This document shows, one piece after another, positions 52,301 to 60,417 of a stretch of 64,000 bases of DNA. The position numbers and the translations under genes are program-made. Positions within the stretch are counted from its first letter, which is position 1. Each line of letters begins with the position of its first letter. The DNA lies in the NCBI GenBank assembly GCA_001574975.1, contig KQ965735.1, positions 262,204 through 326,203 on the forward strand, read 5' to 3'. The notes beneath the pieces are model-generated. The model was not told where the DNA came from, did not search any database, and saw nothing but the letters and a program-made list of their open reading frames with translations. The stretch comes from Gonapodya prolifera JEL478. Its lineage: Eukaryota; Monoblepharomycota; Monoblepharidomycetes; Monoblepharidales; Gonapodyaceae.

Positions 52301-54956
52301 CCGGAGTACAGTCTCGAGGACATCTAGCACAGATGACACGCCAGTTACTTTCGCGGACTTGCAGTCTCCTTCAAACAGCTCGGGCCAAAACAAATCTTTT
52401 ACTAAGATCAATCCGTCACCACGTCTAAGCGTTTCACCAAGCACTAGTCATTTGATATCACGCAGGTCCACCAGCTCCCATTCTCTGGCTATGAGCGAGG
52501 GTCGGGAAGCCAGGCGATCCAAAATGATGCGCGAGGAGTTTACTCGACGATGTAGAGAGGTACCGGAAAATTACGGAAGGCGTCTGACGCTCCTCACGTT
52601 TCTTCTTCTGTCCACGATGGGGTTCTCCCTGGCTTATTCCATTATCGTGTTCCAGTCACGTGAGGTTTTTTTCCTCCCGTTGTGCACGGTCCCGCTCTGC
52701 TTACCACGAATATTAAATCAGTTGATCACAGTATTGCTGATTTTCTGCTCACGACGGATATTGGGCGCTTTGCTCTTGCCATTTGTCAAGCCGCGAGACT
52801 GATGGCGTATTGGGGAAGTCGAGGAGATATAGAACAGTTTGCACGTTGGAAAAACGATCTGACATCTTATAAGGACAAAATGTTCAACCAATCCGTTCCC
52901 TATCTGTCACCTCGGTCCAACCTCGTCACTGGTGTCATACCTGTTGTCAGTTTTAGTCATCTGACAGATGATCCCTGGACGAGGGCTGGTCGAATTACCC
53001 ATATGAATCAGTACCAACAGGCAATTGAAGTTATTGAGATGGCTACCGGCTTACTGAATGAAGGTAGGACGTTGGATTTAAAACGAACCGAGTTTCATTT
53101 CTCCATCATTGAATCGTATTTTCGTAGATATGTCCTTTTGTCAGAGAAATCCGCCAGAAAATGATCGCCGACTAAGATTCCTCCTGGATAACGTGCTTGA
53201 CCTTGGTCGTAGTTTGCGAGGTACGTTCATGCCCTTTCCCCCCACCCTACCCCTCTTATTTTCTCATCACCGAATCACAAGACGTAAACCAAGTCGGAGA
53301 AGAAACCTGTGAGATACAGTAGTATTGGTCTTTATTTGCTTCTCTGAATCTCGTTCCTTTCGCAGTCTCCGTCGCAGTGGAGAACGAGTTGAAAATAATA
53401 TACGTGTGTTGTATAACAATGTTTTACGTACTGGCACTTGAATCTCACCCGGATTCTTATCACAGATTCTTTTGGCAATCGGAATTTCTGTTACAATTGC
53501 TCTGGGATGGCTTGTTTTCTATCCCGTGTTTACCAAAGCCCACAGCTTGCAGGTGATAATAGAAAATCTATCCACGAGCGCTCACTCAGCTAACTGTCAT
53601 TGTAAAGCTTCGCTACATGAGATATTTGCGACATTTGCCAAAGAACGTTGCTGACGAGGTGTTGATGAACATCGACGAAGAGCTAGAATTGGTGGCCGAG
53701 CACGACACTGGCAAAGGATCTCTGAAGGTGATGAAATGACCTTTCCTCCGCTCTGTACCTTTCTTTTTTTCACTTCCCACTACCATCATTCGATCCGCAG
53801 GACGCAGCTCCTATGGACCAACGCTCGAAGGCTGCGTTGAATTACTCAGTGTCACTAATGCTGATTGGAGTGTGTAGTATTGCGATTTTGGTCCCGTTAT
53901 GGACCCGTCTTCCGATTAATGAGGAGTACGTGAAGGTTCGCCGATGTCAGGCTCATCCTTTTGTTGCGTTTTAATCCATGGTAACTTGATAGATTGTCAA
54001 CTACACCGGGTCGGGCCGCAAGTTTTTCGTCAGAGAAGTAAGAACTTTAGCGTATGAGGTGAGAGATGACTGTAGCGAAGAGTTCATTCTGACATCAACA
54101 ATTCCTCCTGAAAGATACTTATTGGAGACAACACAACTTGGAAAGCAGGAGAGGCAGAGAGGCTTATGGAGGATAGCATAAATTTATTTGAGGAAATTCA
54201 CCAGAACGCTGTGACGGGACAGGGCCCAAGGGCAATGATTCCAACAACAAGCATAAATATCATTTCGTCGATTACCCAGAGCACGTGAGTTCTTGTCTTT
54301 TCACATTTCGAACTCATCACTAAAGATTATTGAGTCCACCCCAGTGGTTGCTACGCAGAGAGTTGTGATCCTTCTATTCGTCCTTTTAATTCATCCATAG
54401 GCTTTTCTTCGGAAGCCGTGCACGCACCATCTGATCAGATGGTAAGTCCTACTATTCCTTTCTCAACTGTATTCGAAACGACCATTATCCTGATAGATCG
54501 ATCACTACATTGCGGCTGCACGGGCATTCCTCACCGTCAACGCATTTCGGGCAACGCATAATTTTCGTGACGATCGCATCCTCTACATGGAAGAGCTACA
54601 ACAGGACATCGTGGGAAGATTGGTTAAAATCGACAATTTGATACGTGAGACTTTTCGTAGATTGCGGGATGGTACCTGTGATTAATGACTTGTTCGTTGC
54701 AGTCAACGTCTTTCTTCCCAATGGTAACAACCAGGCGCGATCTGTGTCACAGTCACTTTTCATTCTCTCTGTGACAATCGTGCTCTGTTTGTATCTGTTC
54801 AATTTTCAACGGATGCTGCATGCCAAAGCACTAGAAATGGAAGCTCTCGTCAATCTCATCCACATGATCCCACTGTCGCACGTGAATGCGAGCCCAAAGC
54901 TAAGCAGATTGTTGCAGTCTGGTGGTGTCTTTCTAAATGACGAAGAGGACCACTGA
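49338..54956 (+). CDS. Tiny macrocysts (TmcB/TmcC)-like polytopic membrane protein, copy C
   Basis: This third paralogue lies on the opposite strand from A and B and is clearly more divergent. The start is MASEDGVKMAPP (49338); the last exon ends at 54956. Blocks in order: EQTFFQVLHSMVT; GNEMPRGLAFPLTLFEDMQ then LYFSWHPGFVYAGMP; membrane segments VVTLIGTITFCAFSF and FGLVLFTPYTLLMS; VYVDGNPKSPRNALTRASG; PFALLCIFLVLGFSVGCFL; and the central helical region with EAGFLQFPKDGIVHIQ, TNAEKAEEILYRVS, AYHMETLRELKHFWTFV and ATTPKDYLLYPNYL. Then come LRDIEESRRLLQLAEDLEE, a Ser-rich linker, and the C-terminal helices, including SLFILSVTIVLCLYLF in the last exon. The central region is the TPR-like domain of this family. 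No adenylate or guanylate cyclase was seen. The gene appears intact; exon ends are approximate. Confidence 0.7.
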
Positions 54957-55024: not shown

Positions 55025-56951
55025 TTACTCGTCATGTTGAGTCGCCTCCAAAAACCGTTCTGCAACTCGGCGGGCCTCTTCCTCACTCGCCAACCCTTCG
55101 AGCTCTTTTCCTTGAGTCAGAAAATCGCGCCAGAGAGTCAAATGCTTGCAAACAATTGCAAGAATTGTCTTCGCGCTTACCTATGCTTCGTCCCCACCGA
55201 TCGTTCCCTGACCGAGCAGCCCTCCACCGAACTAGTGCTGGCACCCCCTTAACCTCGATGCCCCAACCCGGCTGCCTCAACGGGTGACGTTGATCTTTCC
55301 ACTCGCTCCTCTGACCTACACGGACTTCAAGCAGGGTTCCTCCGCGCTCTCTGACGAGCTGGCGAATGCTCGGAACAGCACGTCGGACATCGGGGCACCA
55401 CTCCAGCCCGTCCTCCCGCGAAGGGTCAGGAGATGCGGAAAATAGGATGTAGTGTGGACCGGGGTAGGCCATGAGGCGGGCGGCGGCAGAGGGGAATTGG
55501 TCGAGTGGGACGGGGTGAGGGTCTTCTGTTCCGGCCTCGGGAGCAAAAAGTCCAGTGGACAGGTATCTGCGAGCGTAGGGTATATGTCAAAGACCTTTAC
55601 CGAAATGGAAGTTATCACCGTACCTGTCGCCTCTATCACAAACAATGCAAACAATCACGGCGTTCCTCGACATTGCGGAAACTCTCAGCGCGGCGGATAT
55701 GGCACCCCCGGAAGAAATGCCCGCGAATATCCCCTCGGTTCGAGCCATCGCACGCATCATTTCCTCAGCCTCGCGTTGGTCGATATCGACAACATCGTCG
55801 AGTCGAGCGCGGTCGAAGATTTTGGGCTACGTGACGCAAGATCGTTGCATTAGCAATCACACACAGACATGGGTACGTGCCTTCCATCACCTCACCAGAT
55901 ACTCTGGTTGCCATCGTCGAATGCCGGCAATGGAACTTCCTTCCGTCGGTTGTAACCCCACTATTTGAATGTCCGGATTCCGTCCCTTCAAGTACTGACC
56001 CGTACCCATTGCAGTTCCCGTGGTTCCCATACTGGACACAAAGTGTGTTACTCGTCCACCAGTCTGGTCCCAAATTTCCGGGCCTGTTGTTCGAATATGC
56101 GCCAGGGGATTGTCCGTATTGGCAAACTGGTCCAAAACAACTCCGAGTCCTCGTTTTGCCATATCTGCAGCCATATCCCGCGCAATTTCCATAGCGCCTG
56201 GAGGTGCATCGATGAATTTCGCCCCGTATGCAGCCATGGCCGAACGCCGCTCTTGGGACTGGTTCGAAGGCATGATGAGAGTAAGTTTGTAGCCTTTGAT
56301 GGCAGCGGCCATTGCTATGAGCAGGATTTAATTTTAAGTGAATGGAACTGGTGAGGTAAAACATGAGTCGCGGCACACCAGTACGGTGATTTTCCAGAAC
56401 CATTGAGCTCGTCCCCTGATTCCACCGACAGCGCTCTCGCGCGATAAAGGTCTCCTACCCTTTGATGCAGCTCAACAGAGTGCTGTGTGCTGGCCTCCAT
56501 TTCGACCCGTTTCTTGGGCTCCGTCGCAGGTGTTTTTGCTTCCGTTGACATTGGACTCACCAAGAGCTATCCCCGTGTTCCCGCTCGTGGCCTCTATGAG
56601 ATTGTCTCCAGGTTTAATGAGTCCTTTTCTTTCTGCTTCGTTGATCATGCTCAGCGCAGGACGGTCTTTTACGGAACCGGCCGGGTTGTTCCCTTCCAGC
56701 TTCGCGAGGACAATGTTCGACGACGGATCCCCAAAGGTGCCATCGGGGCGGAGTGCAGGAGGGGGAATGAGTCGCTGAAGGCGGACCAGGGGAGTGTTTC
56801 CAACGGTGGACTCGATTGTGGGGAAGCGTAGTTCAGGTGAAGATGGGGACGATTGATGGGGCAAGCTGGCTGCCGCCGCTGCCGACGCCGTTTTCCGGGC
56901 GGTGCATGCGGAAACAGAGGAAGAAATCCGTGCGAGAGCCGTCCTGCGCAT
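55025..56951 (-). CDS. CysM-type cysteine synthase fused to a TXNDC17-like thioredoxin domain
   Basis: The N-terminus ([13 protein letters not shown], from 56951) looks like a mitochondrial targeting signal. The PLP enzyme follows: [14 protein letters not shown]; the lysine motif [83 protein letters not shown]; and [14 protein letters not shown]. The last of these and the 'QPTEGSSI' phrase mark the bacterial CysM type. In the same frame, after a 60-bp intron inside the RY codons, the protein runs on into a thioredoxin-like domain matching TXNDC17: [35 protein letters not shown] and [10 protein letters not shown] (cis-Pro loop). The usual CPDC site reads CPDV, so the resolving cysteine is missing. 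A last small exon ([19 protein letters not shown]) ends at 55025. The reaction is O-acetylserine (or O-phosphoserine) plus sulfide to cysteine. Confidence 0.85.
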
Positions 56952-57129: not shown

Positions 57130-58775
57130 TCATTGTTTCGAAACAAAAGCGTACACAGCCACGCATGCTAGCACAACCGCGGTGTAAATTTGAGCGTGCC
57201 CAAGATTTTTTGCGGCCACCCAGGTGCTCATACCCCACAGGAGCCACGTGGTGGTCCGTGTCGTCCAAGTTGACACTTCGAGGGGTGTCTTCCAGTTTGC
57301 AGGTCTCTTCTCCTTGAAGGCGCGTGGCCCCTCCCGGAAATTTGAACCAGCAAACATTGCTGCCACCTGAAAAGCAGTGGAAGTTCAATAAGGATCGATT
57401 GATTGAAAGTTCACACCCACCTCTGGCAACAGAAGGGATCCCTTGTTTGCGCTCTGCCACCCCAGCTCAAGACCGAGTTTTGCCTGAGCCTTGGCGCACC
57501 TCACGGCGTCTGGAGAGTTGGCTGCAATCTCCCGTGCAAGGGAAATGGCGGTATCAAGCACGTCCTGATGAACAAATACCGTCATTCACACCGGTGAAGC
57601 AACGACTGGGACATAGCGCTTCCTTACCTTTGGATCCACGATAGTCTGTACAAACCCAAGGTCTTTCATCTCCACAGCGGAGAAAGTCCGACCGGTGAGC
57701 ATGAGAAGCATCGCGTTTTGATACCTGAAACAACGTTAGATTAGACGCGTGAGATAAATTTTGAGCGACCACAACATACCCTATCACGCGCGCGAGATTG
57801 GCTGCTCCTCCTACACGTACGATATTTCAAGATCAGATCAAGTCATCGACCAACAAAAAGTCCTTCACACACCTCCCAACGGGCTAAGACCATGCTTGAC
57901 CTCTGGAAGCGCAAACGTTGCATCGCGAGATGCCACCACAATGTCGCACGCTAGAGCAAGCTCAAAGCTAGCGGACACACTTCGGTCTCAAGTCCGCAGG
58001 TCAAGGTCAAGCAGAAATCGAAAATCTCACCCTCCTCCCGTCGCCGGTCCATTGACGGCAGCGATTACTGGCTTGTTGAGGGTCCTTCGGAAAGAAAGTC
58101 CACCGAAGCCTTTGTGGGGATTGGGAACGTGCGAGAAGTTCAAGGTACCAGTACGCCAGGTTGGCCGCATGAATTTCAGCCTCATTTCCTCACCTCCAAA
58201 CAACATTTCCGCGGCATCGGTTATGGATTTGGTGCGCCCCGCTTCTACCAGATCCAACCCAGCGCAAAACACGGGATCCGTTCCCGTGAGAATAGTGCAC
58301 CACCTTCAACCAGCATCAAAGCGGGGTTCATTAACAGATAAAAATGCTTGAACAAACTTTGCTGTGAACTTACAAGTCGGAGCTCGACTCATAGTAATCC
58401 CTGGGGGGAACCGTGAGAAGGGTACAGTGTTATAGCCGTACTGGAGCACTCACCAAATGCTGTTCAGGACAGAGCTTTCACGAAGTTCGGATAAACGAGA
58501 AGATCATCAGTCGAAGAGAGTTTGAGAATGGACAGACCAAGCTCACTTTGTCTTCCTGCAAGAATGGGATGATAAAAACCAACACGCGCGAGAATGATGT
58601 CGTTCTCTTGAGCACATCACTCCACTTCGTACCTATCAATAGCATTCCTCTGTGCGGGACGGTTCAGGTTGACGACCAGAATGCCCGGATGCGGCACCTC
58701 GAGGTTCACACCATCGTGAAGGGGGAGTTTCGATGCGACGGCGTTGTCCAAAAGAGGTTGCGCAGACGCGGTCAT
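57130..58775 (-). CDS. Enoyl-CoA hydratase/isomerase family protein with C-terminal membrane helix
   Basis: This is a crotonase-fold enzyme of acyl-CoA metabolism. The start is [16 protein letters not shown] (58775), followed by [16 protein letters not shown], the classic N-terminal block (exon 58775-58633). Next come [12 protein letters not shown] and [13 protein letters not shown] (oxyanion-hole region), [37 protein letters not shown] and [19 protein letters not shown]. After the usual C-terminal helix ([18 protein letters not shown]) there is an extension ending in a hydrophobic helix, [19 protein letters not shown], stop at 57130. Such a tail-anchor is not typical of soluble mitochondrial hydratases; the tail suggests membrane association (ER, peroxisome or mitochondrial outer membrane). 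The exon between 58633 and about 58290 was not resolved. The specific acyl-CoA is unknown; a delta-isomerase (ECH1-like) role is possible. Confidence 0.8.
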
Positions 58776-58976: not shown

Positions 58977-60417
58977 CTACCACCCGTAGCGCCCGTCCCC
59001 AGGCCTCCTCACACACTCGAACTCTATTTCGTCCAGGGTTTTCCACCCGCCCTGTCCATCAGGGGCCTCCAACCCACCCTTCAATATTTGACCGGGGGTA
59101 ACAGCACCCACTCCACTGGGCGTACCGGTGAGGATGATATCATCAGGTTGCAACGTGACAATCGACGACGCGAACGAGATGAGCGCGGACACGGGGTGGA
59201 TCATGTCCGAGGTTGGGCCCTGCTGGCGGACCTGCCCGTCCACTGTACACCAGAGGCGGAGGGATGATGGCTGACGGCGGGTGGTTGGAATACGCAGGAC
59301 GGTGAGGGAGGGGAAGTGGTGAGCTACGCAAGATGGTGAGTGAGGGAATACTGAACTCACGTCATTCACTTGCTCCTTTGGAATGAACTTTCTAAAATAT
59401 GAGCAAGTAAGGCGGAGTGAGCTTGGCGACCACCGACTCCCCCATCCCACCCGATTGAAAAGACTGTTCCGCTTCGCGACGTTTTCGCCTCCATCGTACC
59501 ACCGACCGACCCACACATTCGTTTGCGAGGACTCTCCCGCTTCGCAGGGTATTTGCCTCCGTCGTCCGACCTACAGACCCACCCACCCGATTGCGAGGAC
59601 TCTCCCGCTTCGCAGGGTATTTGCCTCCGGTGGGCGACTCGGTCAGTGCTTCGCGCTTAGTCCTCGACATACGCTCCGTGCAGGATCAGCCTCCATCTAA
59701 CAGCCTCGGTCTGCGCTAACGGACCAAGGCTTCAGTGCTCGGTCTTCCGTGCTTCGCACTCCAAACCTCGCGAGGCTCGACTATACTTCACTCGGCTTCG
59801 TCTCGTTCATTCCGTCTNCCCCCCCCCCGTCCCCAAGCGCTCGCGTCTCGACTCACCCAATCGGTGCGAACGTGTCGAATCCCTTGGCCTTGGTCCACGG
59901 AAGTCTGTCCCTCTTGGCCTCATCCTGTACATTCCGGGCCGTCAAGTCAAACGCCACGGCGTATCCGGCAACGTGGTCAAGCGCCTTCGAAGCCGGGATG
60001 TCGCGACCACCGGTGCCGATGATGACGGCCAGTTCCACTGTTTCGAAGGCGAAGAGGTTGGGTTAGGTTCTTTGAAGGAAGCAGGGGGTGGCTGGGTGAC
60101 AAAGAGACGGCACCGACATACCTTCGTGGTGGACTTCGACGTCCTTTGGGATTTCGACCGTCCCGGGGCTCGCCACGAGCGACGAGGGAGGCTTTAGGAA
60201 AAAGAACGGCTCCTTGGGAATTGCGTTTCCCAATTCTTTAGCGTGGTCCCTGGTGATGAATCGCGAGGTAAATCGCCGTCGTCGGTGAAGATGCAAATCA
60301 AAAGACCCGAGCGATCGTCAAGCCACTGCGATGCTGCAAGGGGGGATTTCTTCGAGCTCACGCATAGTTTCGTCCAATCGCGACGATCTTTCTAGAACGG
60401 GTGAAGAACTGAGACAT
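58977..60417 (-). CDS. FAHD1: Fumarylacetoacetate hydrolase family protein (FAHD1-type acylpyruvase)
   Basis: FAHD1 enzymes hydrolyse acylpyruvates and decarboxylate oxaloacetate, usually in mitochondria. Exons read in phase: 60417-60362 (MSQFFTRSRKIVAIGRNYA), 60249-60122 (DHAKELGNAIPKEPFFFLKP, then PGTVEIPKDVEVHHE), an exon ending at 59857 (VELAVIIGTGGRDIP, AFDLTARNVQDEAK, GFDTFAPIG), a short exon starting at 59391 (KFIPKEQVND), and the C-terminal exon(s) (WCTVDGQVRQ, SDMIHPVSALISF, DDIILTGTPSGVGAV) to the stop at 58977. The metal-binding acidic residues of the HHE and VELA region and the GTPSGVG loop are conserved. The C-terminal end GDGRYGW is slightly unusual. The intron 59392-59856 (465 bp) carries a 68-bp tandem repeat and a single N, unlike the short introns elsewhere. 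There is little sign of a long targeting peptide. Confidence 0.88.
59455..59658. repeat. Three tandem 68-bp units in an FAHD1 intron
   Basis: Units begin at 59455, 59523 and 59591, exactly 68 bp apart. Units two and three share a 39-base core (59523-59561 and 59591-59629) containing CTCCCGCTTCGCAGGGTATT; unit one is a diverged version. Confidence 0.85.
59818..59818. other. Single N before a poly-C tract
   Basis: An assembly break at a run of C inside the same 465-bp intron; the intron length is therefore not exact. Confidence 0.9.

Follow-up and report, generated by a model that had tools for sequence, protein, structure and literature searches.

A Predicted Fusion of Cysteine Synthase B With a One-Cysteine TXNDC17-Like Thioredoxin Domain in the Fungus Gonapodya prolifera

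Introduction

In a window of 64,000 nucleotides from Gonapodya prolifera JEL478 (the whole stretch of DNA that has been analysed), one gene has been found whose predicted product is a single polypeptide of 494 amino acids, in which a complete CysM leads, over a linker of some 15 residues, into a TXNDC17-like thioredoxin (Trx) domain with one active-site cysteine (WCPDV). S-sulfocysteine has reportedly long been known in fungi, from a 1962 paper on Aspergillus nidulans. A natural fusion of this kind would suggest a dedicated partner for the step that comes after CysM, and also how the fungus may use thiosulfate. For E. coli, this step has been described as uncharacterized until free redoxins were shown to perform it (PMC3528435). 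Furthermore, the occurrence of a TRP14-type domain without the resolving cysteine beside a dithiol paralogue would allow a direct test of what the second cysteine does.

Gene Structure and Reading Frame

The spliced model runs on the minus strand from an ATG at 56951 to a TAA at 55027-55025, exactly the span (56951-55025) and strand given by the first-pass annotation of this DNA, and consists of five exons and four introns of 246, 69, 57, and 70 nt, all four bounded by GT...AG (Table 1). The first-pass annotation had further proposed that CysM and a TXNDC17-like domain share one frame and are joined inside an exon, and both proposals have been borne out, as Pfam models match in both halves and the end of CysM lies together with the start of the Trx half on exon 4. 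The CysM end, a stretch of 13 residues, spans intron 3, which splits the codon of R338, and the 128 codons that run from Y339 to where exon 4 ends contain no stop. Consequently, neither an intron nor an intergenic gap separates CysM from the Trx half. Taken by itself, the open frame is weak evidence, since 134 of 5,000 dinucleotide shuffles (2.7%) keep the exon 4 stretch open too, and the assignment to one polypeptide therefore rests on the homology of both halves. By its position, exon 5 would be expected to supply the last helix of the Trx fold. The first 33 residues hold no Asp or Glu and five Arg or Lys, a presequence-like composition from which mitochondrial targeting of the 494-residue protein may be supposed.

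Table 1. Positions of the gene features, of two neighbouring pieces, and of the unfused TXNDC17-type gene. Positions are those of the window except in the last line.
Feature	Position	Strand	Content	Basis
Exon 1	56561..56951	-	presequence-like stretch and CysM start, with PLP lysine K95 and TSGNT 122-126	gene model, key residues, PALP
Exon 2	55896..56314	-	CysM middle, with GTTGT 227-231 and the R263 R264 W265 loop	alignment with E. coli CysM 2v03
Exon 3	55624..55826	-	CysM C-terminal part up to CDRGDR	alignment with PDB cysteine synthase B
Exon 4	55181..55566	-	CysM end (YLSTGLF), linker (about 15 residues), and the larger part of the TXD17-like thioredoxin domain	Pfam PF06110, PDB TXNDC17 matches, BLAST match to the C96 copy starting at residue 361
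Join	55542..55544	-	A346, first codon past the CysM homology	key-residue mapping
CPDV active-site motif	55386..55397	-	Cys395 at 55397-55395; Val398 (GTC) at 55388-55386	
Exon 5	55025..55110	-	residues 467 (split codon) to 494 and TAA	GT-AG splice sites, outside homology cover
Enoyl-CoA hydratase-type piece	58027-58305			Pfam
FAA hydrolase C-terminal domain piece	58977-59570	-		Pfam, 63.9 bits
Unfused TXNDC17-type gene, contig C96	952-1068, 1155-1173, 1239-1317, 1394-1426, 1503-1569 (coordinates of L102)		five exons	

The Cysteine Synthase Half and Its Bacterial Relatives

The enzyme half has been matched by Pfam as PALP (residues 47-334, 221.6 bits) and exceeds the cut-offs of both NCBIfam equivalogs for CysM (NF008735, 484.2 bits with a cut-off of 413; TIGR01138, 438 bits with a cut-off of 394.2). 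All of the CysK models fail, among them TIGR01139 with 276.8 bits under its cut-off of 350.95. The PDB sequences matched best are chains of cysteine synthase B, and 190 of 290 aligned positions (65.5%) are identical to E. coli CysM 2v03. The catalytic residues have been kept, namely the PLP lysine, TSGNT, GTTGT (Table 1), and the SSG region at 308-310, and a positively charged loop, R263-R264-W265-Q-P-E-Y (RRW-x-x-EY), resembles the one that has been linked with thiosulfate as a substrate. The enzyme half is accordingly classified, at the level of sequence, as CysM (O-acetylserine sulfhydrylase B/S-sulfocysteine synthase). In the description given for the pair PaCysM and PaCysK, it is the RRWPQEY loop with its arginine that sets the thiosulfate-using PaCysM apart, and for the formation of S-sulfocysteine from thiosulfate a kcat of 286 per s has been reported for PaCysM vs. 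0.29 for PaCysK (PMC12895370). The CysM half may likewise condense activated serine with thiosulfate to S-sulfocysteine.

A scan of prokaryotic genomes with the CysM half has returned 46 loci, the best being ∼67% identical. The tails past the CysM match could be read in 45 of these; 40 stop within 0-7 amino acids, one extends over 23, and four over 148 amino acids, and the WCPD motif is absent from these bacterial tails (for the 148-residue tails, from their first 80 residues). A tree of 46 rows, comprising the CysM half of the fused gene and 45 loci that had been picked by short peptide patterns (38 Pseudomonadota, 4 Bacteroidota, and 3 Bacillota; one further locus, L081, is cut off and was left out), pairs this CysM with a sequence from an uncultured Halieaceae (support 95/96), nested among 17 further rows that all come from Pseudomonadota (support 87/94). 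Bacterial origin of the CysM half by transfer thus appears likely. The donor is not fixed by this tree, because the branch of the fungal CysM is long (0.57), a feature of which the tree program warns, and because short patterns had served to select the loci.

A TXNDC17-Like Domain Without the Resolving Cysteine

The Trx half matches TXD17-like_Trx (PF06110) at residues 375-455 with 47.3 bits (cut-off 23.1), covering positions 21-99 of the 119 in the profile. A PDB search with E-values up to 10 has matched seven sequences; convincing E-values (3.8e-7 to 3.3e-4) belong to five of them, which carry the names TXNDC17, thioredoxin-related protein 14 kDa, or “putative 42-9-9 protein” (1v9w), and the other two (E 0.74 and 0.96) look like chance and have been set aside as relatives. 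When the fused domain is aligned with three TXNDC17-type sequences, each of them partial, 11 columns hold the same residue throughout (G, W, C, P, D, P, G, W, R, P, L). The earlier statement that all landmarks of TXNDC17 except the second active-site cysteine are present is thus roughly right, W-C-P-D being among these columns. The nucleophilic cysteine, the Pro-Asp pair, and the VP(A/T)L loop have been retained; the resolving cysteine is Val in the fused domain only and Cys in the other three rows. The change from CPDC to CPDV read by the first-pass annotation is indeed encoded, with Cys395 kept and GTC at Val398, and a single miscalled base does not explain it, since any Cys codon lies at least two bases away from GTC. 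As the motif reads WCPDV in place of the dithiol WCPDC of TXNDC17/TRP14, the Trx half is addressed here as a TXD17-like domain and not as a TRP14 dithiol reductase. Cys395 is its sole cysteine. C330 of the CysM half has been considered as a resolving partner for Cys395 and left as an idea; in the 22 bacterial rows (out of 46) in which the search pattern could read the motif, a residue other than Cys stands there. An AlphaFold model of exon 4 alone, computed from the single sequence, reached a mean pLDDT of 47, which is too poor to place Cys395.

The genome (47.56 Mb, 207 contigs) holds a second gene of this type. The first two genome searches for the domain returned the fused gene only; a search at low threshold added three weak matches, and a PDB TXNDC17 segment used as the query added one more. 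Of these four, L101, L103, and L105 show no WCPD in three reading frames and have been set aside as chance. The idea that the genome holds no TXNDC17-like domain besides the fused one has been ruled out by a stand-alone CPDC gene found at the looser threshold on contig C96, at about 78452-79069 (locus L102, G000:C96:77501-80569). It reads ...NTGKS-WCPDCQ-VAEPKIR...ATAVPTLIKW, is interrupted by at least four introns, and carries its WCPDC motif on a microexon of 19 nt; the gene model stops short of the last exon at the 3′ end, and the junction between its exons 4 and 5 is the analyst's reading. Its splitting by introns explains why profile searches at the usual threshold had missed it. Since such exon-by-exon profile searches miss intron-split genes, they do not prove the absence of further TXNDC17-type or CysM copies.

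The C96 gene scores 70.2 bits with PF06110 vs. 47.3 bits for the fused domain, and the two are 31% identical over 99 aligned positions, the alignment beginning at residue 361, ∼15 residues past the CysM end. Both belong to the same family, but the C96 gene has an intact WCPDC and, in its model, no CysM, and its motif is flanked by introns whereas the fused gene has none at that place. Judged from these sequences, the fused domain is a diverged second copy beside a dithiol paralogue. The CPDV copy is therefore not the cell's only TXNDC17-type protein, and the existence of an unfused CPDC gene does not refute the fusion.

Sulfur Genes in the Genome

Around the fused gene, at distances of up to 6 kb, five pieces have been given to Pfam. 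Two have matched (Table 1); the pieces at 52664-53164, 54642-54956, and 57385-57585 gave no Pfam match, and among these partly annotated neighbours no adjoining sulfur gene has been seen. Elsewhere in the window, a frame on the minus strand at 39593-40693 matches FAD_binding_6 with 26.7 bits (cut-off 21.1), which we take to be perhaps a cytochrome b5 reductase-type protein.

PALP has been matched at 16 further places in the genome, of which five were scored with NCBIfam and the other 11 read by eye. From exon pieces only, C9:580k scores best as cystathionine beta-synthase and C9:368k, C6, and C162 score best as cysteine synthase A, all below the full-length cut-offs; a diverged place on contig C2 (L019, G000:C2:400121-400951) scores best as cystathionine beta-synthase, with 100 bits for the matched piece against a cut-off of 510. 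Two nearly identical pieces, named by eye as threonine-dehydratase-like (L014 and L015, G000:C44:143000-147000 and C32:96500-100500), represent either a recent duplicate or uncollapsed haplotypes. Alpha-aminoadipate reductase (TIGR03443) is a hallmark of fungi, and its model matches contig C8 piecewise over nearly its whole length, with no piece reaching the cut-off of 1030 bits; matches below the cut-off have also been obtained in 12 of 14 control prokaryotes. These pieces fit a probably fungal genome, and the introns of the genes modelled fit a eukaryotic one.

Regarding the substrates of CysM, a CysE-type serine acetyltransferase gave no match in the genome with a model that was positive in all 14 controls, and the only MetX-type pieces, on C38 and C3, stay below the cut-off. 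The search for a TusA/YeeD partner likewise gave no match in the genome, its model being positive in 11 of 14 controls. Both negatives weigh against the function preferred below, the former by leaving its serine donor unsettled, although genes of either type could be hidden by introns, as the C96 gene was. The YeeE family (PF04143) includes thiosulfate transporters, and pieces of this family have been found on three contigs (C53:69932-71218, C79:55281-58681, and C172:9078-12652; L028-L035), two of the pieces being re-found by Pfam. These pieces are apparently split by introns, and several lie close together on C172 and C79. By their family membership they are possible thiosulfate transporters; bacterial YeeE imports thiosulfate, and YeeE-like proteins are said to exist in some eukaryotes (PMC11073785).

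Occurrence of the Fusion Elsewhere

Pattern scans, which reach close relatives only, have found no relatives of the Trx half in viral contigs, prokaryotic genome contigs, plasmids, or phages. With PF06110 at E ≤ 0.001, no match was obtained in five genomes, in a search whose controls gave no match either, and three of 398 genomes of one bacterial phylum were matched, none of the 398 over the cut-off. Nothing in these collections of prokaryotes, viruses, and plasmids contradicts the earlier view that the fusion is not a standard architecture, and among the literature matches listed, no title or abstract reports a cysteine synthase fused with TXNDC17 or DUF953. As TRP14-type proteins with WCPDC have been reported in some bacteria (PMC8945050), we do not claim that the PF06110 family is restricted to eukaryotes.

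Possible Functions of the Fused Protein

According to the reading that we tentatively prefer, and that we regard as plausible while short of probable, thiosulfate would be turned into S-sulfocysteine by CysM, and the tethered monothiol would aid the release of cysteine. The CysM half would join activated serine to thiosulfate, whereupon Cys395 would attack the sulfenyl sulfur of S-sulfocysteine, expelling sulfite and leaving a mixed disulfide between Trx and cysteine; without a resolving cysteine, glutathione or another redoxin would then free the cysteine. One polypeptide, possibly mitochondrial, would thereby cover the entire two-step assimilation of thiosulfate, which bacteria split between CysM and free redoxins, and the stand-alone CPDC protein would keep a general role as cystine reductase. 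Both steps have precedents in E. coli, where S-sulfocysteine is formed from thiosulfate by CysM and can then be reduced by thioredoxins and glutaredoxins, yielding cysteine plus sulfite (PMC3528435). TXNDC17 (TRP14) has been reported as a cystine reductase, from which it follows that its fold acts on small cysteine disulfides (PMC11217419), and joining the two activities would make chemical sense. The reading is further favoured by the CysM identity of the enzyme half with its catalytic residues and RRW loop, by the YeeE-family pieces, by the retention of the nucleophilic cysteine, Pro-Asp, and the VP(A/T)L loop after loss of the resolving cysteine, and by the unfused CPDC copy. The first-pass annotation had suggested that persulfide or sulfide is channelled or that CysM is under redox control, which are possible; S-sulfocysteine reduction is the candidate that appears to fit the biochemistry of CysM better. 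As the resolving cysteine is missing, any catalysis by the fused domain must be of the monothiol type with an outside thiol. The loss abolishes the usual thioredoxin-reductase cycle and thus disfavours the preferred mechanism, and a monothiol route is further disfavoured by the report that E. coli Grx4, a “monothiol glutaredoxin” according to the reference list of that source, was inactive in the S-sulfocysteine assay, which ran on thioredoxin reductase and not on GSH (PMC3528435). A stronger version, in which the protein is a self-contained thiosulfate-to-cysteine enzyme that S-sulfocysteine never leaves and the cysteine was lost adaptively, giving a GSH-dependent reductase set apart from the dithiol paralogue, is considered rather unlikely.

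About as likely as monothiol catalysis is a non-catalytic or redox-sensing role of the Trx half, which may be a regulatory appendage that stabilises a dimer or, with its single cysteine glutathionylated or cysteinylated, tunes CysM to the redox state. The lost resolving cysteine, the divergence of the domain from the C96 copy in identity and Pfam score, and the free CPDC copy that may cover the need for a reductase all speak for such an appendage, yet a pure scaffold would have no need of the WCPD motif, the VG...W...R block, and the VPAL loop, all of which are kept, nor of a nucleophilic cysteine retained as the only one of the domain. In an improbable variant of the channelling idea, Cys395 would act as a sulfur carrier whose persulfide or thiosulfonate is passed to the aminoacrylate in the CysM site; one cysteine is enough for a carrier, TRP14-type proteins have been reported active on persulfides (PMC8945050), and mycobacterial CysM reportedly draws sulfur from the carrier protein CysO (a work cited in PMC9506716), but a bacterial CysM with the RRW loop uses the small thiosulfate directly (PMC12895370), the nearest relatives found are bacterial CysM without an attached carrier, and the genome searches returned no TusA-like partner. 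Least probable is that the cell does not make the two halves as one protein, CysM alone being produced by alternative splicing or early polyadenylation, or the join being an assembly error. Intron 3 sits seven codons ahead of the CysM end and makes an alternative last exon conceivable; against this stand the absence of a stop at the usual CysM end, the GT-AG borders of all four introns, and the unbroken frame of exon 4 with homology on both sides, the frame argument being limited by the shuffles that are open as well.

Comparison With Known Systems

With E. coli CysM (2bht, 2v03), the fungal protein shares the whole length of the enzyme, the PLP lysine, TSGNT, GTTGT, and the RRW loop, and it differs by a presequence-like N-terminus, introns, and the C-terminal TXD17-like domain. 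With TXNDC17, TRP14, and the plant Clot proteins (1wou, 22fg), the fused domain shares the PF06110 match, WCPD, VG...W...R, and the VP-L loop, with identities of 25% and 32% to the pair of PDB TXNDC17 segments compared, whereas it carries Val for the second active-site cysteine and is covalently joined to CysM. A further eukaryotic sulfur-assimilation enzyme tethered to a redoxin is the PAPS reductase of oomycetes with its added glutaredoxin motif (PMC2705460); it concerns another enzyme step and another redoxin family, and the cysteine synthases treated in the same source are separate genes of the plant type. What is new in the Gonapodya gene is the joining of two families that are each known, together with the change of one residue.
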